DNA of 31,078 nucleotides from a virus: the IMG/VR virus record IMGVR_UViG_3300044695_002148, positions 1 to 31,078 of that record; one strand, 5' to 3'. The number at the start of each line of letters is the position of its first letter. Within the stretch, counting starts at the first letter, position 1. Below, one piece after another: positions 6,735-28,693 of the stretch. A program made the position numbers and the translations under genes. The notes beneath the pieces are model-generated. The model was not told the DNA's origin, did no database searches, and worked only from the letters and a program-made list of their open reading frames with translations.

Positions 6735-7186
6735 CGGCCACCTCCGAGTGCGTAGTGCAGCACCAGCAGGGCGTCACAGTTCTTGAGCGTGACGTCTAAT
6801 TGCGGATACAGCTCCTGGGCCTTGCTCTTAAGCTTACGCTTCCATTCAGGACCAGTAGCGCATGAACGCTTGCCACCGAGTCCAAGAGGATCCTGCCAGA
6901 TCTTGGGTTCGACGCGATGAAGCGCGTAACCTTGAGAGTAGGCCAGTCCTTGGACGATGCCGTAGTTTTCATGGAGCGTTGCCACGCTTGCTGAGGGCGT
7001 GAGCTTGGACACGAACTTGGGTACCTTCTCGATCCATAGGTGACTGTCCGCCACCTTGAATCCGCTGAGGAGTTGCGCCATATCCGGTAAGGATTCGGGC
7101 ATTGCGAAGAGAAGGATGCCGTCCTTGGTGTGGATAGCGAACCCCCCGTTTACGCCTGGGTCACAGGCTACGATTGTTTTGTTCAT
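6731..7186 (-). CDS. RuvC-like Holliday-junction resolvase (151 aa)
   Basis: The protein has an RNase H-like fold of the RuvC type and should cut branched DNA during replication or packaging. The first strand carries the catalytic Asp in IVACDPGVNGGFAI (residues 4-17, Asp8). A second acid lies in LWIEKVP (about 60-66), and the last motif is KNCDALLVLHYAL near 135-147. Length is normal for phage RuvC-like nucleases. The ATG at 7186 is preferred over a start at 7231 because the N-terminus then begins right at the first strand. It has no Shine-Dalgarno but a GGTCCCAACAAACAAA leader five bases upstream. The neighbouring helicase and annealing genes fit a recombination module. Confidence 0.88.
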   Translation of the reverse strand: MNKTIVACDPGVNGGFAIHTKDGILLFAMPESLPDMAQLLSGFKVADSHLWIEKVPKFVSKLTPSASVATLHENYGIVQGLAYSQGYALHRVEPKIWQDPLGLGGKRSCATGPEWKRKLKSKAQELYPQLDVTLKNCDALLVLHYALGGGR

Positions 7187-7298
7187 TGGTTTTTGTTTGT
7201 TGGGACCGAATAGTGAGAGAGTGGCCGACATAGATCCCGGCGATCACGCACAGTGGCAGCAGTACTGCCATGCCCATGATAGTCAGTGCGGTGTTCAT
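7161..7298 (-). CDS. Small membrane protein between helicase and resolvase (45 aa)
   Basis: The ORF begins MNTALTIMGMAVLLPLCVIA, continues GIYVGHSL and ends in a polar tail. It has one transmembrane segment (about 5-25). Its ATG overlaps the helicase stop (ATGA), and its 3' end overlaps the start of the RuvC-like gene by 26 bases, crossing that gene's leader motif. Coupled start and a clean membrane segment support it. No family is recognised. Confidence 0.55.
   Translation of the reverse strand: MNTALTIMGMAVLLPLCVIAGIYVGHSLTIRSQQTKTNEQNNRSL
7192..7207 (-). promoter_or_regulatory. GGTCCCAACAAACAAA leader motif before the RuvC-like gene
   Basis: On the minus strand this is GGTCCCAACAAACAAA, five bases before the resolvase ATG. 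It is a one-base-shorter variant of the motif preceding the primase and helicase genes. It also lies within the small membrane-protein ORF. Function is unknown. Confidence 0.45.
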
Positions 7299-9457
7299 GG
7301 GATCGAGCATCCAAGTTCCTTGTAGCACTTGACCCGTTTCTTGGAGTGAGCCTGAGCCAGAGGATGGAAGGTGTCCTTGAAGTCGTGGATGATCGCAGTG
7401 TCCTTACCTGGTGCCCGCCGCAGCGCACGGCTGGCCCGCTGGATGGTTTTCTGTGCGGACCGCCCTCCAGATACCATTACGAGGGTGTGGACGTTAGGAA
7501 GGTCAAGCCCCTCATCGGCCAGCGAGGTGGCGATCATGGTTGAGATGTTCCCTGCCTTGAACTCTTCCATCGCTTCCCGGCGATGCTTCTTCGGCATCTT
7601 CGAGTGAACGAGTACGGAGCCTCTCAATGACATGTTGTAATATTCTCCGAGTGTGACTCGGGGAACCAGAACCAGCGTGGGGTATTTAGGACTACCGGAT
7701 GCGGCCATCATGATCGCCATATCGTTTCTGGCCCTGTTCCCACAGATACCGATCTCAGTGAGTGCTTCCCAAGCGCACATGGCCCGAAGGATGGGCTGAC
7801 TGACTTGCATGTACCGTTTCCGATCAATGAACAGCCTCTCGATTTGATCATCGATCTTCTGCTGGAGATGTAGGTCAGTGGCAGAGTGCATGTAGATGTT
7901 GGCGTGAGCGAGTACACCGGCCAGTTCATCACGACGGATCTCGAACTGGGTATCGCGGAACATCTTACGAAGGATCTCGTTACGCTCGGGATCATCGGAC
8001 CAAGGAGTGGCATCGAATCCGAAGCGAAGTCCTTTGCAGGACTCGATAATCTTACGCCAGGTGGTCGCCGGCGCATGCTTGCAGTTGTGGACTAGGATTC
8101 CGTTGGCGAAGTAATTCTCATTTCCTTCAACCGAGAAATTGTAGACATGATCTTCTCCGCGCATTGCTCGGCTCCAAGAAGGACTTCCTTGTTGGTGAAC
8201 CTCAACACGCACCACCCGAGTGAATTGAGTGTTTCGGTTTTCTTTTTGTCCGCAGCCTTCCTGCTGATTGAACTGTGAGAAGACCCGTCTACTTCTATCG
8301 CCAGCTTCACTAAAGGCTCCGCAAGATCCACCTTGTAACAGTTTGGAACCTTCGCGATTCCGCTTCCCGCTGTCGGTATCGCATACTCCATTAGAAGGTT
8401 GCACATGAATGAGAGCGTATGCTGACTTAATGTTGGTCCTGTTCCATTTCCCCCACGAACCTTCGGCTTGTGGTCGATCAGTTTGAGCGATTCCGAGATA
8501 CGCTTCCTGGTCTGATCGGATACAGTCCTCGCTGACATCCATTTGGAAATCTTGTCGCCCATCCGTTTGTTCGTGGCCGACATTGTTTCCGAACTCATTT
8601 TTGAAACCATCAAGTCCCGACACTGAATCGAGCAGTAGGCTCGACCTCGTTTGAGTGCATCCAAACTCTTGTGAGCTGGAGTTCTTCCCATGCATGTGAC
8701 CGGCGTCTTGCACCATGCACATTGAGTTTCCACGCGCTTTCTCTTCTCGAACCGAAGAACGGTTTTGCATTGCTCGCAAACCGGCTTTCGGGTTGTTGAG
8801 AAATGACCGTTTCTTTCGGTCGTCGATCCGCATTCTCTGCATTCCATGTTCATGCGTTGGAATGATGGCAACCACATCGTTTGATGTCAAGCTGGCGGCT
8901 GGAACGTAGTCGAACCCATTCCAGAATGGATGACCTGGGGTACAGGTGACTGGCCCGTTTTCAGTCCAAATTGTCACCATCGTGTCAGGAGCCGGTGTCT
9001 TGAAAACCTCAAGAACCCTCCGTTTTTCAATGGATTTAGAATCATGGTTATAGGAATCGACAAGGTCTCCAGCCTTGATTTGGCTGATTGGCTTGTCGCC
9101 AATTTGAACCCACGATGGGAAACATTCATCAACGATGATCAGGTTCTTACGGGAGAAATCTACGGAGTCATGGGGGCAACGAACCTCGACCCGTGAAGTA
9201 TCGACTCCTACTGCTATGAGCGAAGCGATTGCTTGCTGGCAGGTCTCACGGGTAGGAGCAAGCCAACCAAAGGTCCACTCGGGCCATCGAGCAAAGTGCT
9301 TGATGATGGAAGAGGCGATGACGGTCTTTCCGCATCCAGCAGGAGCGATAATGAGTCCATCGGCTCCAGACTTAGCCCACTCGACGGCTCGTTGCTGGTA
9401 GGGACGAAGCAGAAATGCTTGCGTCGAATTGGTTTCGGGATGATCTTTGGTCTGCAT
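7295..9457 (-). CDS. SF2 DNA helicase interrupted by an intein in motif II
   Basis: The 720-aa precursor should yield a helicase of about 373 aa after protein splicing. Before the intein: Q-like LRPYQQRAVEW (17-27), motif I APAGCGKT (38-45), motif Ia LAPTRE (66-71) and IIVDE (107-111). The intein runs from Cys112 to Asn458. After it: CKHAPATTW completes motif II, then motif III-like FDATPWSDD, motif V ATSLADEGLDLP and motif VI QRASRALRRAPG. This is the set of a phage SF2 (UvsW/RecG-like in broad terms) helicase, likely for replication or branch processing. The ATG at 9457 is chosen over an in-frame GTG at 9511, which lies inside a hairpin. A GTCCCAAACAAACA leader is 17 bases upstream. Without splicing, motif II would be split and the helicase inactive. 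Confidence 0.92.
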   Translation of the reverse strand: MQTKDHPETNSTQAFLLRPYQQRAVEWAKSGADGLIIAPAGCGKTVIASSIIKHFARWPEWTFGWLAPTRETCQQAIASLIAVGVDTSRVEVRCPHDSVDFSRKNLIIVDECFPSWVQIGDKPISQIKAGDLVDSYNHDSKSIEKRRVLEVFKTPAPDTMVTIWTENGPVTCTPGHPFWNGFDYVPAASLTSNDVVAIIPTHEHGMQRMRIDDRKKRSFLNNPKAGLRAMQNRSSVREEKARGNSMCMVQDAGHMHGKNSSSQEFGCTQTRSSLLLDSVSGLDGFKNEFGNNVGHEQTDGRQDFQMDVSEDCIRSDQEAYLGIAQTDRPQAEGSWGKWNRTNIKSAYALIHVQPSNGVCDTDSGKRNREGSKLLQGGSCGAFSEAGDRSRRVFSQFNQQEGCGQKENRNTQFTRVVRVEVHQQGSPSWSRAMRGEDHVYNFSVEGNENYFANGILVHNCKHAPATTWRKIIESCKGLRFGFDATPWSDDPERNEILRKMFRDTQFEIRRDELAGVLAHANIYMHSATDLHLQQKIDDQIERLFIDRKRYMQVSQPILRAMCAWEALTEIGICGNRARNDMAIMMAASGSPKYPTLVLVPRVTLGEYYNMSLRGSVLVHSKMPKKHRREAMEEFKAGNISTMIATSLADEGLDLPNVHTLVMVSGGRSAQKTIQRASRALRRAPGKDTAIIHDFKDTFHPLAQAHSKKRVKCYKELGCSIP
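8084..9124 (-). mobile_element. Intein (347 aa) with the endonuclease gene in another frame
   Basis: The intein begins at Cys112 of the precursor (CFPSWVQIGDKPISQIKAGD, block A) and ends in VHN with Cys as the first extein residue. Block B is GPVTCTPGHPFW with the TxxH motif. Block F is VYNFSVEGNENYFANG and block G is NGILVHN/C. All residues needed for class 1 splicing (Cys1, TxxH, penultimate His, Asn, Cys+1) are present. The N-terminal splicing part is about 82 aa and the C-terminal part about 25-45 aa. Between them about 240 codons of the host frame have no recognisable domain; the same DNA encodes a homing endonuclease one base out of phase. Insertion directly after Asp-Glu of helicase motif II is a typical conserved-site choice for inteins. 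Confidence 0.93.
8092..8877 (-). CDS. Homing endonuclease nested out of frame in the intein: Cys pairs, NUMOD3-like motif, VSR-like nuclease
   Basis: The 261-codon gene starts with ATG at 8877, four codons after an in-frame TGA, so it cannot be an in-frame part of the intein. Residues 13-86 hold Cys pairs at 13/16, 34/37, 53/56 and 82/86, likely zinc-binding. Residues about 109-133 (KISKWMSARTVSDQTRKRIS, then ESLKL) resemble the NUMOD3 DNA-binding helix of homing endonucleases. Residues about 155-235 look like the VSR/DUF559 nuclease fold: Glu164, IEVDGSSH (Asp197, His201), ADKKK (Asp210) and GWCVLRF, matching the EDxHD order. It should cut intein-less helicase alleles. No Shine-Dalgarno is seen before 8877 or before ATGs at 8853 and 8847, so how it is translated is unclear. 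Its last codons overlap intein blocks F and G. Confidence 0.85.
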   Translation of the reverse strand: MWLPSFQRMNMECRECGSTTERNGHFSTTRKPVCEQCKTVLRFEKRKRVETQCAWCKTPVTCMGRTPAHKSLDALKRGRAYCSIQCRDLMVSKMSSETMSATNKRMGDKISKWMSARTVSDQTRKRISESLKLIDHKPKVRGGNGTGPTLSQHTLSFMCNLLMEYAIPTAGSGIAKVPNCYKVDLAEPLVKLAIEVDGSSHSSISRKAADKKKTETLNSLGWCVLRFTNKEVLLGAEQCAEKIMSTISRLKEMRITSPTES

Positions 9458-9474
9458 AGCGTTCGTTGCGACTA

Positions 9475-9488
9475 TGTTTGTTTGGGAC
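9475..9488 (-). promoter_or_regulatory. GTCCCAAACAAACA leader motif before the helicase
   Basis: The minus strand reads GTCCCAAACAAACA, 17 bases before the helicase ATG. It is identical over 14 bases to the motif before the primase-helicase gene. The upstream hairpin at 9496-9521 ends seven bases before it. Function is unknown. Confidence 0.5.
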
Positions 9489-9495
9489 TCGATCA

Positions 9496-9521
9496 CCCCC
9501 GGGAGCTGCACCTCCCGGGGG
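9496..9521. terminator. Perfect 10-bp GC-rich hairpin between the DUF669-like and helicase genes
   Basis: CCCCCGGGAG and CTCCCGGGGG pair perfectly around a six-base loop. On the minus strand no T-run follows (TGATCGAG), so it does not look like a standard intrinsic terminator for the operon. On the plus strand it is followed by the T-rich CTTTCGTTTGT and could stop antisense transcripts. It may also be an attenuator, a processing site or an mRNA stabiliser that lowers helicase expression. The structure is certain, the role is not. Confidence 0.5.
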
Positions 9522-9535
9522 CTTTCGTTTGTAGG

Positions 9536-9955
9536 TTAGATGGCGTCGAGATCAGCGGGCACTTTCTTCATGCGGCGCACTCGGAAGGTCGTTTGTTCGG
9601 CACCATGCTTGTCGGTGTACTTCTCTTCCTCGATCACGATCACGAGGGACAAGCCAACGAATCCCTGCAAGAACCGTAGGAAAGCCCCTCCAATGCTAAA
9701 ATCGAACTCATCTCCATCGGCGATGTTAGCTTCGGTGGCACTGATGAGTGCCTGAAGCCGCCACATCATGGTGTCCTTGAGAACGAAGCGGTCGCTGATG
9801 ACTTCGCCCGCTGGCCCCTTGTACCGGAGGGTTGCGACGGCGTTACCGCTCTTGTCGAGTCCATCGTCCTTACAGGAGTTGACGGTGACGGTGTATTCGC
9901 CGGGAGCGGCGAACGGCTTAACTTCTGCGGATGCGCGATCTACTTTAAATGTCAT
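9536..9955 (-). CDS. DUF669-like phage replication/recombination protein (139 aa)
   Basis: The protein is an OB-fold-sized domain: EYTVTVNSCKDDGLDKSGNA, then ATLRYKGPAGEVISDRFVLK, then TMMWRLQALISA, then LSLVIVIEEEKYTDKHG and a basic end. This order (strands, a 'trade-off' loop with KSGN, a W-containing helix and a final strand pair) matches DUF669 proteins, which sit beside recombination genes and are thought to bind single-stranded DNA. The neighbours RecE-like, RecT-like and helicase fit that. The ATG at 9955 is preceded by a GTCCGAATAACAAACA leader rather than a Shine-Dalgarno; a much longer upstream frame overlaps the nuclease gene and is a shadow. Confidence 0.78.
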   Translation of the reverse strand: MTFKVDRASAEVKPFAAPGEYTVTVNSCKDDGLDKSGNAVATLRYKGPAGEVISDRFVLKDTMMWRLQALISATEANIADGDEFDFSIGGAFLRFLQGFVGLSLVIVIEEEKYTDKHGAEQTTFRVRRMKKVPADLDAI

Positions 9956-11765: not shown

Positions 11766-14700
11766 TTACTCGGGGGGTTGTTGGAAGCCCCGGCGGGCTG
11801 AGATTGGCGTGAGGGTTTGGCCGGATTCTCGCAGTTCCTTGAGGAAACGGTACTTGCCGATTTCCCCACCTTTCTCGTAGGCGGATCGCAGCAATTTCAG
11901 TTTGATTTCATCGGTTCCTTGCTGGTACTGGCCACTAGTAAAGACCCGCTCAGAAAGCCCTCTCCGGTAGAAACCAACGAGTTGAGAATACCGGTCATAT
12001 TGCTCTGGATTCATCCGCTCAAAAGTTTTGTTATGAAATGTAAGCGAAGGGTTTGGAACCGATGGAATTGCGTTGTTGTCCGCCGTCTTGCGCCAGAGGC
12101 GGTAGATCGAGGCGTTGAGAGGATCAGCCTCAATGGACCGACTTTTCCACGCATCGAAGAAATTGTAGGTCCAAGGATTCTCGCCCTTTGGCGTCTGCTC
12201 AACAGCATCTCCCCACAAATCCCGGCGCACCGGCATGGAGTTCGGATCCTTTACACCAGGGATGGCCAACCCAAGGGCGGCGTACCTCTGGTTTAGCTCG
12301 TTAATCGAATCCTTGATGAACCCTTCGCCGCCAATTGAAGGCAGGTATTCACGCTCGGCACGGCGAGCTGCACCAAGGATATTGGGCGCAAGAGGTGATG
12401 CTGCGGTGATCGAAAGATTTTTCACAAATCGATCCAGTGAATTTGATGACTCTTCGGACATCAGCTTGATGAAGTCGCTGGTTCCTTTAAGGAACTGCTG
12501 CTCCATGATGAAGTTGATTCCAGAAAGAGCTGCACCTTTTCCAAGCGATAGAAAATCGGGATCACTCGTCTTGGACCGCTCTTGGATTCGACGGGTTGTT
12601 CCCACCATTAACCCGATGGCTCCGCTTGTTCCAAGTGCTGACAGATCTTTCACGCTATCACCGGGCCGGAACGATGGGTCTTCTCCTTTAACTAACCGTC
12701 GAAGTGCGCTGGTGTTGATCGTACCTGGAGGCATCACGCCACCAGCTTTGGCCAACTCGCGAGCCTTGTTGGTCTCCCCTGGAGTATCCAAATTCGGTGT
12801 AATCACACCCTTGTCGTAAAGGTAAGCGTAGGCTCCTGCAACCGTGGTTCCTACGATCAATCGAGCGGTCGCCGTATTGCGCTCTTTGGGAGTCATCTTT
12901 GACCAATTCCGAAGTACACCAGCAGGGGTGAACTGGAGGATTTCAGCGGCAACATTGATCGGTGTTTTCTGGAACAACGAGATCAACCGATACGGGATAT
13001 AGAGAGGGGTTTTTTCTCTTATGAATTGATTGATTCCTGCAACGCCCTGAGTCGCAACATTGTCTTGCTGGAAGATTGAACGGGCGGCTTCGAACTCAAT
13101 TTGACCAAGATCTTCGGCGGTGAATCCACGTTGGCCAGCAGCTTGAGCCTCATCGGAAATGAGCATTAACTTAGGGTTACGAGTAGCCACACGGATTTGC
13201 CCTTCCGATAAACCCCGCTGGCGACCAATCTCTGAAACTACACGGGCGCGTTCAGCCTGACGGAAAGGAACATCGGTCGCTTGAGTCATCCTAAGCATGA
13301 CGTCTGGAATGACGCCTACCGTTGCTTCGACTAGGTTGCGAATAACTGGTGTTTCCTTGTACTCGCCAGACATGGCTTCAAACAAGTTTCTCCACGCCCT
13401 CTGAAAATTAAGTGGATTTCCAATGCTTGTTCCAAGCTCATAAGGATTTCCTTCTGAACCCTTAAGCATAATACGCTTTGCTGTTGGCAGCGATTTTCCA
13501 AACGCCTCGATACGCTTAAGTGTTCGTGATCGGATGTCGTATGAGTTGTTCTTTCCTCCAGACAAAGCGGAATCAATTGCCATCGCGGTAAGGTCTGCTA
13601 ACTCTCTCAATGGGGCGTTGATAGTGTTTCCAAGCACGTTGCGAATAATGGAGATCGGACCCATCACAGATCCTTGAACCATCGACAAAAACAGGTCTGT
13701 TGCAGTAGATGGGTTTATGCGAGCAATCTGCTCATTTAACACAACATCAGCTTCAGATCGAAGAGCATCGGCCATGTCTGCGAGACCAGACGCAATTCTC
13801 TCTCCACGGACATCTCCTTTGTTAGCTGCATCTGTCATCAGGATCTCAGCGCGTTTAACGGCATCAACAGCACCGCGATACTGATCCATTGAATTCCCCA
13901 GTTTAGTGGCCTGCTCAGGAGTGATCATCCTTCCACGTTCAGCCATCGATTTCGTGACCAACTGAACCACTCCTTCGCGAGATGCTGACTTCAGTAGCTT
14001 GAATTGGTTGATGAGCTGACCCCAAGTGGTTCCGCTTTCAGCCAAGGTAAGCGATAGATCCGCAGCTTCTTTGGTGCGACCTTCATTGATCAACCGGTTG
14101 AACAGTTCCATTCCCGAAGCAACGCGGGTATTGGACTTAGCATTTCCAAGATCAGCATTAAGCTGTTCAGGGGTTGCAACCGATACTTGATCGACCACTT
14201 GTTCAACATTCTGCGGCAGATATGAAGCACGGGGCGATTTCGCTACCGATTCACGAATAACCGGAGGAACACTTGGGGCGGCGGCAACGCGCTCAGCAAA
14301 TGCGCGAGGTTCCATTTTCGGAGGAGCTTGAATTTGTGATGGTCGTTGGATTGTTCGCGTGAGTTGGTTTGCAAACTCAGCCTCATCAAAATTCTCTTTA
14401 AAGTTCTGTTGAGCGTAACGTAATCCAGCAGCAGCGGCGTCAGCAATAGATCCTCCAGCGCGGATAATTTCTTGAGCTACAGTCAATGCCCCATTCCAAG
14501 CTGAACCCATAAGCTGTGGGAACGGATTCATACCAAGCCCAGGTTCTACATTGGTACGAAGACCTTCTAATTTTTCAGCAACACCCTCAGCTTTCTTCCG
14601 GAACTTACCTTGAGTCTCTTCCAAAGATTTCTGCCATACTTCGTTAAAAATCGTGCGTTCAGCAACAGGCAACCCAACCTCCTTGCGACCAATACCAATG

Positions 14701-16091
14701 GCCTTCTCAATGCTTTTTTTTGTAACCTGAGCGGATTCTCCACGAAAAGCTCCAGACTCTAATGCTTCCGAAACGGCTTCAGAAACAAGCCGCTTGTCAC
14801 GCGAAGCAAGTGCGCGACTCAGCTTCTCATCAACCGTTTCAAGAGGAGTAGATGTTTGGGCAGCAGATTTATCTTCAGCAGCGATTCGTTCGTCACGAGC
14901 TTTAAGACGTTCAGCAAGGATTTGATCCTGAGTCTTTAGTGTATCCGGAGCCTCATCAATTACTTCACTGATAGGAATTTTGCCGCCTTCAGCCGCAGCG
15001 CGTGGACCTTCTCCAATCACTTCTGGTTGATAGATAAACGGCTCATCGGGGTTCATCTCGGCAATCAGTTCTCGGAACTGAGTCTTGAGATCACGCACCG
15101 GAACGATGCGATCCATCTGATCGATGAGTCCACTGACTTGGCCGATGGCTTCCCCAACGGTCTGTTTTCGAGAAGCAAGGTTATCAAGCACATCAGCTTG
15201 AGTTACACCTTTCCCGCGCATGCCAAACGAGCGGGCCGCTTGAGTGCCAAGACCGGCTGCGAAGAGAGTTCCAATAGCCGCTTCGTATGAAGCCTTGAGC
15301 TTCTGCTCTGGAGTAGCTTCTGGATCAGCGATGGTCTGCAATGCAACACCGGTTGATTCAGCGGCACCACGGGTTACCTCGGGAGCAAGAACAGCGGGGA
15401 TGGCTTGGCCAACTTGCTCAGTTGCACGAGCCGCCTCTCCAGCGCGAGTAAGATCCGCAATCTGTGCAGCGCGAGCAGCAGAAGGGGCTGTGGCTTCAGC
15501 AAATGATTCAGTGGCGGCAGCAACCGATCTAGGAATTTGAGTGGCTTCTTTAGCAGCACCCGCAATCCCCATCGTCATCAGATTCATCGGGGAAAGAAGA
15601 TCAGCAGCAACTTGGCCTGCTACTTCTCCTGCCGGACGAGTCACTGACTGCGGAATTGATCGAAGACCAGGAGTAACTATTCTCGCAATGTCAGCGGCTT
15701 TTGCACCTAGAGACGCTCCCAGTTCGCGTTTTTCAGGAGAAGCGGACAAGAGGGCCATGATACCTTCCTTGTCGATACGGGATGCGCCTTCGAGCATTCC
15801 CTGCTTTGGTTCTCCACCAGTGACTTGCTGGAGAACTCTTCCAGCGGTTGCGACATCTTGGGGGGTTGGACCACCAAACGCCAACGGAGCGACAAGACGA
15901 GCCAATGAAGGGGCCACAGACTTGGCCTGCTCGTACAAGCTAGGAGGAGCCTGGAGAACTGGTGCATCTGGATATTTCTGTTTGCCAGCAAAAGCGAAGG
16001 CCCGCTCGACATCTTCCTTTGTCGGGGGCCTGTCGCCTTCCAGCTCAAGAGTTACTCCAGTGGCATCCTGAGTGACTTCGTAGATAGGCAT
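11766..16091 (-). CDS. Giant internal-virion (DNA-ejection) type protein (1441 aa)
   Basis: I assign this by size, composition and position, not by an enzyme motif. It is the last and largest gene of the virion block, as the giant ejection proteins are in podoviruses. The first 560 residues are Ala/Glu/Gln-rich and mostly helical. Residues about 830-1090 are hydrophobic helices and loops (LFLSMVQGSVMGPISIIRNV, PLYIPYRLISLFQKTP, ARLIVGTTVAGAYAYLYDKG), which could enter a membrane. The C-terminal part is polar with many aromatic residues (NPWTYNFFDAWKSRSIEADP). Such proteins leave the capsid during infection and build a channel or move DNA. It could instead be one of the polyvalent proteins with embedded enzymes; no lysozyme or transglycosylase motif was seen. 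The start ATG follows AAATAAT with no Shine-Dalgarno. Confidence 0.75.
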   Translation of the reverse strand: MPIYEVTQDATGVTLELEGDRPPTKEDVERAFAFAGKQKYPDAPVLQAPPSLYEQAKSVAPSLARLVAPLAFGGPTPQDVATAGRVLQQVTGGEPKQGMLEGASRIDKEGIMALLSASPEKRELGASLGAKAADIARIVTPGLRSIPQSVTRPAGEVAGQVAADLLSPMNLMTMGIAGAAKEATQIPRSVAAATESFAEATAPSAARAAQIADLTRAGEAARATEQVGQAIPAVLAPEVTRGAAESTGVALQTIADPEATPEQKLKASYEAAIGTLFAAGLGTQAARSFGMRGKGVTQADVLDNLASRKQTVGEAIGQVSGLIDQMDRIVPVRDLKTQFRELIAEMNPDEPFIYQPEVIGEGPRAAAEGGKIPISEVIDEAPDTLKTQDQILAERLKARDERIAAEDKSAAQTSTPLETVDEKLSRALASRDKRLVSEAVSEALESGAFRGESAQVTKKSIEKAIGIGRKEVGLPVAERTIFNEVWQKSLEETQGKFRKKAEGVAEKLEGLRTNVEPGLGMNPFPQLMGSAWNGALTVAQEIIRAGGSIADAAAAGLRYAQQNFKENFDEAEFANQLTRTIQRPSQIQAPPKMEPRAFAERVAAAPSVPPVIRESVAKSPRASYLPQNVEQVVDQVSVATPEQLNADLGNAKSNTRVASGMELFNRLINEGRTKEAADLSLTLAESGTTWGQLINQFKLLKSASREGVVQLVTKSMAERGRMITPEQATKLGNSMDQYRGAVDAVKRAEILMTDAANKGDVRGERIASGLADMADALRSEADVVLNEQIARINPSTATDLFLSMVQGSVMGPISIIRNVLGNTINAPLRELADLTAMAIDSALSGGKNNSYDIRSRTLKRIEAFGKSLPTAKRIMLKGSEGNPYELGTSIGNPLNFQRAWRNLFEAMSGEYKETPVIRNLVEATVGVIPDVMLRMTQATDVPFRQAERARVVSEIGRQRGLSEGQIRVATRNPKLMLISDEAQAAGQRGFTAEDLGQIEFEAARSIFQQDNVATQGVAGINQFIREKTPLYIPYRLISLFQKTPINVAAEILQFTPAGVLRNWSKMTPKERNTATARLIVGTTVAGAYAYLYDKGVITPNLDTPGETNKARELAKAGGVMPPGTINTSALRRLVKGEDPSFRPGDSVKDLSALGTSGAIGLMVGTTRRIQERSKTSDPDFLSLGKGAALSGINFIMEQQFLKGTSDFIKLMSEESSNSLDRFVKNLSITAASPLAPNILGAARRAEREYLPSIGGEGFIKDSINELNQRYAALGLAIPGVKDPNSMPVRRDLWGDAVEQTPKGENPWTYNFFDAWKSRSIEADPLNASIYRLWRKTADNNAIPSVPNPSLTFHNKTFERMNPEQYDRYSQLVGFYRRGLSERVFTSGQYQQGTDEIKLKLLRSAYEKGGEIGKYRFLKELRESGQTLTPISARRGFQQPPE

Positions 16092-27150: not shown

Positions 27151-27537
27151 TTAAGACTCCATCTCGCTGTCGTACTCGGAAACCATGTTTCGCATACCTT
27201 CTTCGTCCATTGGTTCCATAGATTCCTTGCCGGCCTTCTCGTACTCGGCGGGCATACCGTTCACGCTTTGGATCTCAACGTAAGCCTCACCATTTTCAAG
27301 CTTCTTGAGAATACCCCGAACTTCCTGTAGGACAACTTCATCACCAACCTCGGGGGAAGCCTGTTGGCCATCTTCCGTGTCAGTGGAAAGAGCCTCGACT
27401 GGAATCGCAATCATTGGCGCATTGTTGTCAGCCTCATCACATCCGCAAGCGGAATGAGAAGGGGCACCACCGATTTCTCGACGATGCCCCTTTGGGCCGA
27501 CGGCAATCACCATGATGGTGGCCGTCTTAGGTCGCAT
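27151..27537 (-). CDS. Small acidic protein after the capsid gene (128 aa)
   Basis: After an N-terminal strand, TATIMVIAVG, and a Cys pair (SACGCDE), there is SPEVGDEVVLQEVRGILKKL, then ENGEAYVEIQSVNGMPAEYE, then an acidic helical tail. The central section looks like a small beta barrel. It is directly downstream of the major capsid gene with one base between them, so it is probably a head-associated protein. No family is recognised. Confidence 0.65.
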   Translation of the reverse strand: MRPKTATIMVIAVGPKGHRREIGGAPSHSACGCDEADNNAPMIAIPVEALSTDTEDGQQASPEVGDEVVLQEVRGILKKLENGEAYVEIQSVNGMPAEYEKAGKESMEPMDEEGMRNMVSEYDSEMES

Positions 27538-27538
27538 A

Positions 27539-28693
27539 TTACAGCGTGGTAGAGGTCTTAGTACGATGCACCAGGTACCACACCGGGTTAGCAGTGGAGC
27601 CAGTGTTACCAGCGGCCAAACGCAGAGCGGCGAAGTACAGCTTCACACCAACGGTGACGAGCTGGTTCAACGGATCGCTCTTGTCGGGGGTATCGGTGAT
27701 CACAACCTTCGGGGACAACGGATCATCACCGGTCAAGGCAGGGATACCAAAGGACTCATTACCAAAGAAGAACGAGGCGATGATGTCCTTGCTAACCGCC
27801 AGACCGCCACCCGCGGCGGAAGCCTGATAGATGAACTCGTCAGCGGCAGTACCGGAGCCGGTGCTAACAAACGAGTTGGTCTGAGTGACAACGCGGCAAC
27901 CGTAGATGGAACCCACCTCGCCCTTGTAGAACGGGGTACCCTTGTTGCCGTAGTTGGAGGCGTTCAACCAATCGGCATCGCGCATCAAATCACGGGTAAC
28001 ACGAGGATCGGTCGCCAGGACGTAGCCACCGTTGATCATCGGAGCGCGGTTACGCTTCAGACGAGTCATGGAATCCAAGACAGCCGAAGCGGTCATCGTG
28101 GCATCGGCAGCAGTGGTCGCACTGTTCAGACCAGAGAACGTCTGAGTGGTCAGCGTAGCAGGGTTGCCGTACACCTTAATACCGCCGGAAGAAGCGGCAG
28201 TGTTACAAGCATCCGAGTTATCAAACGTACCACCACCCTCAGCGGCGGAACCGATAGAAGAACCGCTCGCAGTGAGGTTAGATCCGATCAGGGTGTTACG
28301 AATGACCGAGTCAACCCAGAGGGCCATGTCCAGACCGGAAGTCTTGGTGGCCTGCTGGAGGGAGTTGAACAGGTCCGTAGCGCGGAGAATATCGGTCAAT
28401 CCGATCACCTGACCGTACTGAGCGAGGCTCTTGCTGAGGCTGTTGAGAACAAGGGAACGATAGTTTCCAGAGCTGATAGGAGTACCTTCAGAACTGATGG
28501 TCTGGACACCAGCAACGCTCGGAGGACCGAAGCGGAACATCGTGATGGCCTTGTTACCATTGTTCTTGGGGATCGGAGCCTTCATGGAGAACTGATCAAG
28601 AATCGTCTCCTGTTGGACGATCGAGAGAAGCTCCTTGCTGAAGAAGTTCTGGAACTGACTGGTTAGCGTGGTTGAAGTAGTAATGCCTGCCAT
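27539..28693 (-). CDS. Major capsid protein, N4-gp56 type (384 aa)
   Basis: The sequence follows the N4-gp56 family of HK97-fold capsid proteins: FFSKELLSIVQQETILDQFS near the start, then KNNGNKAITMFRFGPPS, then SSEGTPIS, SLAQYGQVIGLTDILRATD and a long helix LDMALWVDSVIRNTLIG. The C-terminal part contains GSIYGCRVVTQTNSF and ends PVWYLVHRTKTSTTL. Length fits the family. It follows the scaffold gene, the standard order. The ATG is preceded by CTAAAAT with no Shine-Dalgarno even though this should be the most expressed gene; a long plus-strand frame opposite it is a shadow. Confidence 0.9.
   Translation of the reverse strand: MAGITTSTTLTSQFQNFFSKELLSIVQQETILDQFSMKAPIPKNNGNKAITMFRFGPPSVAGVQTISSEGTPISSGNYRSLVLNSLSKSLAQYGQVIGLTDILRATDLFNSLQQATKTSGLDMALWVDSVIRNTLIGSNLTASGSSIGSAAEGGGTFDNSDACNTAASSGGIKVYGNPATLTTQTFSGLNSATTAADATMTASAVLDSMTRLKRNRAPMINGGYVLATDPRVTRDLMRDADWLNASNYGNKGTPFYKGEVGSIYGCRVVTQTNSFVSTGSGTAADEFIYQASAAGGGLAVSKDIIASFFFGNESFGIPALTGDDPLSPKVVITDTPDKSDPLNQLVTVGVKLYFAALRLAAGNTGSTANPVWYLVHRTKTSTTL

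Follow-up and report, generated by a model that had tools for sequence, protein, structure and literature searches.

A phage helicase intein with its predicted homing endonuclease encoded in an overlapping reading frame

The DNA analysed here, hereafter the window, is the whole IMG/VR virus record IMGVR_UViG_3300044695_002148, 31,078 bases in length. Its minus strand carries an uninterrupted open reading frame (ORF; 7295-9511) for a phage SF2 helicase that contains an intein, and within the DNA of this intein lies a second ORF, in the +1 frame relative to the helicase, for a protein with the features of a homing endonuclease. We think it highly probable that the element is a mobile intein, still active, whose DNA serves two genes at once, one frame giving rise to a spliced helicase and the other to a free endonuclease. 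The evidence comes from the two proteins themselves, from the pattern of selection in close relatives, from the distribution of the insertion among phages and from a wider family in which the same layout recurs.

In the helicase frame, Pfam recognizes the ResIII/DEAD, Helicase_C and Intein_splicing domains (the latter with E = 7.4e-11). The intein interrupts motif II directly after its Asp-Glu (DE/C, the slash marking the insertion point), and the residue that follows the insertion is Cys instead of the usual Ala. It begins with CFPSW and ends with ILVHN, followed by Cys+1, and its block B reads TPGH. The original prediction of an intein with blocks A, B, F and G is thus borne out: C1, a block B of the TxxH type, the C-terminal HN and the Cys at +1 are all in place, C1, H65, H346 and N347 are invariant across 21 aligned inteins, and Cys+1 is present in every copy of the window type. 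An AlphaFold2 model computed from the alignment of 21 sequences gives residues 1-92 and 297-347 a beta-rich structure, mostly with a predicted local distance difference test score (pLDDT) above 90, and leaves all 204 residues from 93 to 296 below 50. We are confident that the two folded ends of the host frame would form a Hint-type domain, an assignment made from Pfam and the model rather than by comparison with solved Hint structures. A search of positions 7000-9800 with Rfam gave no match to a self-splicing intron up to E = 1, which argues that no known intron of group I or II lies there.

The +1-frame ORF conforms to what had been proposed for it, namely 261 codons with an ATG and a stop of its own (8092-8877, minus strand) and an in-frame TGA four codons before that ATG. 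It starts within the intein N part, also overlaps the C-terminal splicing blocks F and G, and stops 8 bases short of the last base of the intein (Table 1). Its translation yields a confident model (mean pLDDT 87.9). E195, D197, G198, S200, H201 and D210 are invariant in nine aligned relatives; the host-frame reading of the catalytic IEVDG is no more than its shadow, DRSRR. I-Bth0305I, a group I intron ORF, is the closest solved fold of the nuclease domain and shares its E..D..H..D motif; it is not nested out of frame in an intein, and identity over the matched region is 20%. This match (PDB 3r3p) was found with a Foldseek probability of 1.00, an E value of only 0.014 and a target template modelling score of 0.61, and was followed by 3hrl. 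By sequence and model the nested ORF is an EDxHD/DUF559-type homing endonuclease, and it is predicted to cleave DNA.

Table 1. Coordinates of the helicase gene, its intein and the nested ORF in the window.
Feature	Position	Strand	Evidence or remark
N-extein of SF2 (DEAD/ResIII) helicase	9125-9457	-	ends in motif II (...IIVDE); probable ATG at 9457, ORF open from GTG at 9511
Intein, 347 aa, C1...N347, then Cys+1	8084-9124	-	Pfam Intein_splicing, 7.4e-11; 1041 nt in all 13 copies
Intein N part, residues 1-92, blocks A and B	8849-9124	-	AlphaFold2 means over 10-residue blocks 90-97, beta-rich
Host-frame linker, residues 93-296, predicted disordered; endonuclease in other frame	8237-8848	-	pLDDT below 50 throughout; no amino-acid constraint, no stops
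Intein C part, residues 297-347, blocks F and G; endonuclease C terminus overlaps to 8092	8084-8236	-	pLDDT block means 93-96
C-extein of helicase, Cys+1, Helicase_C domain	7295-8083	-	Pfam Helicase_C, 1.4e-14
Nested homing endonuclease ORF (predicted), +1 frame relative to helicase, 261 codons from first ATG, stop TAG	8092-8877	-	Pfam DUF559, 1.8e-12; fold match to I-Bth0305I; purifying selection
TGA in endonuclease frame, four codons upstream of ATG 8877	8887-8889	-	stop at same place in all 13 copies
Invariant ATG (M9), likely start	8851-8853	-	kept where ATG 8877 is lost
Second invariant ATG (M11)	8845-8847	-	kept in L010 and L011
First zinc-ribbon-like Cys cluster of endonuclease, C13-C37	8767-8841	-	sequence
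Second Cys cluster, C53xxC56...C82xxxC86	8620-8721	-	invariant in wider family
Catalytic motif E-x-D-G-x-S-H...D (EDxHD type)	8248-8295	-	invariant residues and fold match

The same insertion was found in 12 further IMG/VR contigs, giving 11 distinct intein sequences in all with DNA identities of 79-99.5%. Every one of the 13 copies measures 1041 nt, without insertion or deletion, and in each the host frame is free of stops and the endonuclease frame intact, so the relatives offer no sign of a nuclease frame riddled with stops; the stops that bound the endonuclease frame upstream and downstream are likewise the same in each. It had been estimated that about 12 stops would fall in the host frame by chance, where there are none. 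Synonymous shuffling of the endonuclease codons agrees with that figure: the mean number of host-frame stops was 12.6-15.1, and a count of zero was never obtained in 5000 shuffles of each of the 11 distinct sequences.

The proposed comparison of substitutions per frame across relatives shows how the two frames are maintained. Before the overlap, variability is highest at position 3 of the host codons (0.65); in the middle of the overlap the peak moves to host position 1, which is position 3 of the endonuclease codons (0.65 vs 0.21 and 0.19 at the other two). Pairwise counts over three non-overlapping pairs, which comprise few changes, put differences that are silent in the endonuclease and alter the host protein at 0.226 per site, equal to the rate at the few doubly silent sites, and differences that alter the endonuclease and are silent in the host at 0.043 per site. 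At 52 sites where a change silent in the endonuclease would create a host stop, no change was seen against about 12 expected. Because of these rates and the absence of host-nonsense changes, we conclude that the endonuclease frame is under purifying selection as a protein, while the linker in the host frame is constrained only against stops and not in its amino acids. The suggestion that both frames are maintained therefore holds in full for the endonuclease; for the host frame it holds only in the sense that an open spacer is preserved.

Searching for relatives with and without the insertion, as had been suggested, uncovered, besides the 12 further carriers, about 40 relatives that are intein-free at the site. 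The window and L022 share 89.5% of their intein DNA and only 61.7% of their C-extein DNA, and other pairs behave alike, with 81-90% identity for the inteins and 61-65% for the exteins (61-62% for the C-exteins). Dual coding accounts for part of this excess, yet identity in the same pairs remains at 76-81% in the N part of the intein, where only one frame is coding, against the 61-65% of the exteins. Among the empty alleles, L063 has a helicase fragment 99% identical to its intein-bearing counterparts and reads DEAKH where they read DE/CKH. The position of Cys+1 is thus Ala in the near-identical intein-free phages, and in other empty alleles it is Ser. The difference between carriers and L063 indicates that the Cys+1 codon arrives together with the intein. 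Taken together, intein DNA that is more similar than the surrounding exteins and near-identical phages that lack the insertion point to recent homing.

Two intein-free helicases, L028 and L040, have a Cys at the DE/CKH site, within some 45 bases of locally diverged sequence. This patch is possibly the scar of an intein loss or else an altered, resistant target site.

Mini-inteins free of any endonuclease occupy the same motif II site in Vibrio phages whose helicases are closely similar to that of K391, and their presence in sister phages implies that the long linker is dispensable for the element. The carriers are Vibrio phages 13VV501A, PS65A.1, K459, K453 and K389 (L312-L316). L312 and L313 have a second intein, at Walker A, which in PS65A.1 (L313) contains an in-frame LAGLIDADG-type endonuclease.

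The arrangement extends well beyond the close relatives of the window. A tblastn search of 50,697 phage records with the endonuclease as query returned about 40 clear matches, and in every case the overlapping host gene, from a Vibrio, Pseudomonas or Corynebacterium phage, was a helicase gene or had no name. In each of the eight phage isolate records examined, among them Vibrio phage CP-T1, Pseudomonas phage MR14 and Corynebacterium phage phi673, an unbroken host ORF contains a +1-frame endonuclease, and the isolate records that we sampled annotate only one helicase or hypothetical protein there. Profile scans, two of IMG/VR and one of GTDB genomes, whose loci we classified with hidden Markov models of the intein and of the endonuclease, brought the total to 169 distinct one-ORF inteins of this type (126 viral, 35 from bacterial genome assemblies and 8 from phage isolates), and in all 169 the endonuclease is in the +1 frame relative to both intein halves, never in frame and never in +2; each scan covered the best 80 loci of its collection, and distant relatives with in-frame or free-standing endonucleases may exist at lower frequency. 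Across 37,431 codons the host frame has no stop and the third frame 2731. The endonucleases fall into 21 single-linkage clusters at 50% identity. Their hosts are SF2 and SNF2 helicases, methylase-helicase fusions and clamp loaders of the DnaX/delta-prime family, the latter exemplified by the DNA polymerase III clamp-loader genes of L183, L185 and L190, and the insertion site is nearly always Walker B or motif II. About 40 further genome loci matched only the generic DUF559 part, and none of them shows an intein.

The recurrence of one layout in 169 distinct phage and bacterial sequences speaks for an old and stable design rather than a sequencing error. On balance we lean towards viewing these elements as an ancient intein class, spread over phages and bacteria and seated mostly in the Walker B or motif II of helicases and clamp loaders, whose endonuclease would always be a separate protein, encoded in the +1 frame and made from an internal start. 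With the same modest preference, we suggest that the overlap couples splicing and homing in the same bases, and that a host frame once broken turns into a fractured gene with a split intein. Such a locus occurs in a Lacinutrix metagenome-assembled genome (L171:3160-5454), where the host frame has 23 stops and separate ORFs encode helicase-N with intein-N, the endonuclease, and intein-C with helicase-C; it is a split, or fractured, gene of the same intein family.

Two other loci deserve mention. A helicase in L179 (1861-5649) combines an intein of the nested +1 type with a second intein whose LAGLIDADG domain is in frame. In Salmonella phage S16 (L318:1814-4540) the split uvsW gene carries intein halves and an overlapping endonuclease-like ORF in the +2 frame; this ORF is of a different type, with weak TnsA-like and NUMOD3 matches, and is annotated only as a hypothetical protein.

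How might such an element work? The helicase frame would be translated straight through the insert, which the Hint parts at both ends would then excise by protein splicing, the middle serving as an unstructured spacer that needs only to stay free of stops. Separate translation of the +1 frame from an internal start codon would produce a free endonuclease of the EDxHD/DUF559 type. This enzyme is predicted to cut intein-free helicase alleles at the motif II codons (DE/A-KH or DE/S-KH), and repair would copy the intein, along with the obligatory Cys+1 codon, into the cut allele.

We next consider how ribosomes would enter the +1 frame. The ATG at 8877, proposed as the start, does exist; it is ATA in L010 and GTG in L011, however, whereas the ATGs at 8853 and 8847 are invariant. 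We have therefore set 8877 aside as a conserved start, and translation probably begins downstream of it. A different route would be programmed +1 ribosomal frameshifting out of the helicase frame, producing a fusion of helicase-N, intein-N and endonuclease. Frameshifting would explain the constant +1 offset, for which a single origin accounts equally well, and would suit the lack of a good Shine-Dalgarno sequence before the ATGs of the window. It would have to take place, however, within the dozen or so codons that the TGA of the endonuclease frame leaves in the window. In 28 of 86 loci a stop in the endonuclease frame lies within 3 codons of the ATG, and in 9 of the 86 that stop comes directly before the ATG, which leaves no room for entry by a frameshift upstream of it. 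Sequences resembling Shine-Dalgarno sites are, moreover, enriched before the internal ATGs: predicted pairing with the anti-Shine-Dalgarno averaged -4.76 kcal/mol before the first endonuclease ATG and -2.47 kcal/mol before other ATGs of the same host genes (156 distinct members, Wilcoxon p = 2e-10, an optimistic value given that the loci are related). The stronger pairing and the stops right before the ATG fit internal initiation better, and we regard frameshifting as unlikely; judging from these sequence features, translation of the endonuclease most likely begins at an internal start of its own.

Several points weigh against the proposal of a mobile intein with a separately translated endonuclease. 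Besides the small number of changes behind the pairwise rates and the relatedness of the loci in the pairing test, the window itself has no recognizable Shine-Dalgarno sequence before its endonuclease starts, and in a small number of relatives an ATG is missing near the start of the endonuclease. Several other genes of the same phage also have no Shine-Dalgarno sequence.

One could also envision that the endonuclease frame is a decaying remnant and that all that now persists of the element is a spliced spacer. Decay after fixation is common among homing endonucleases, and mini-inteins without an endonuclease do occur at the same site. However, strong purifying selection on this frame, intact catalytic residues and recent spread into diverged helicases make this very improbable. 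Still less credible is the notion that the host frame is open by chance or composition and that the helicase is in reality interrupted and non-functional. The linker indeed has no domain or amino-acid conservation of its own, but the shuffles would lead one to expect some 13 stops, the third frame of the family is full of them, the C-terminal helicase domain remains intact, and the only relative with host-frame stops, L171, keeps an intein half in each half of its gene. Finally, although in-frame endonucleases are usual in inteins, the idea that sequencing or assembly errors shifted an ordinary one out of frame, which would have undone the original prediction, is refuted by the 13 copies of identical length, by sequenced isolates and independent assemblies with the same layout, and by the uniform +1 offset of the 169 one-ORF cases.

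As to known systems, fractured genes with split inteins and Vsr-like endonucleases were reportedly described by Dassa and colleagues in 2009. In these, too, the two intein halves reportedly flank an endonuclease ORF that is read in another frame, a layout visible in L171 and in S16 uvsW; their host gene, however, is divided into two ORFs, each with an intein half, and needs trans-splicing, whereas the helicase ORF of the window is continuous and holds the endonuclease inside. Canonical LAGLIDADG and HNH inteins, whose endonucleases are described in reviews as in-frame fusions or nested domains (PMC3943268, PMC6801210), share with the window an endonuclease that interrupts the Hint domain at the linker position, a conserved ATPase motif as target, and homing. 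Their endonuclease is read in the frame of the intein, translated as a fusion and retained as part of the intein, whereas that of the window lies in the +1 frame and is predicted to be a separate protein.

That an uninterrupted intein with an out-of-frame nuclease had not been described, as the original prediction supposed, needs qualification, even though relatives support the arrangement itself. The nearest precedent, a partial one, is the ShiLan domain, a hidden out-of-frame HNH endonuclease in phage methylases (Arsenault, Gosselin and Gogarten 2025, PMC11855218). Both are mobile, stop-free in-frame insertions with an endonuclease in another frame whose start and stop lie near the insertion ends. 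ShiLan differs in having no detectable splicing domain, its authors predicting that it stays in the protein, whereas the window has a canonical intein; its HNH endonuclease lies in the third frame rather than being an EDxHD/DUF559 enzyme in +1, and its methylase host can be absent from close relatives. Judging by its title, and by the fact that PMC11855218 cites it on overlapping reading frames, a 2025 preprint by Gosselin, from the ShiLan group, on non-canonical intein architecture may already report the general arrangement. It probably does not extend to the endonuclease family described here, because that family is nearly absent from actinobacteriophage records, among which phi673 alone gave a clear match.

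These findings bear on several questions. Annotation of a single frame hides the nuclease, so the existence of a large lineage that never has its endonuclease in frame would alter the counting of mini-inteins and of "long-linker" inteins. The lineage would also be a case of long-lasting dual coding in which the tasks are cleanly separated: selection acts on the protein in one frame and only keeps stops out of the other. With it, the expression of a selfish nuclease from inside another gene becomes open to experiment, and a concrete path appears by which continuous inteins could give rise to fractured genes and split inteins. It is tempting to add that endonucleases aimed at conserved ATPase motifs may serve as site-specific nucleases.

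Elsewhere in the window, a 1441-aa ORF at 11766-16091 has no Pfam or PHROG match, and the phage also encodes a RecT-like gene and a DUF3799 gene. At 27512-28693, two 384-aa ORFs overlap in antiparallel orientation; no match was found for the plus-strand ORF, which is probably an antisense shadow of its minus-strand partner, the gene of the major head protein (phrog_1357, 1.2e-34).
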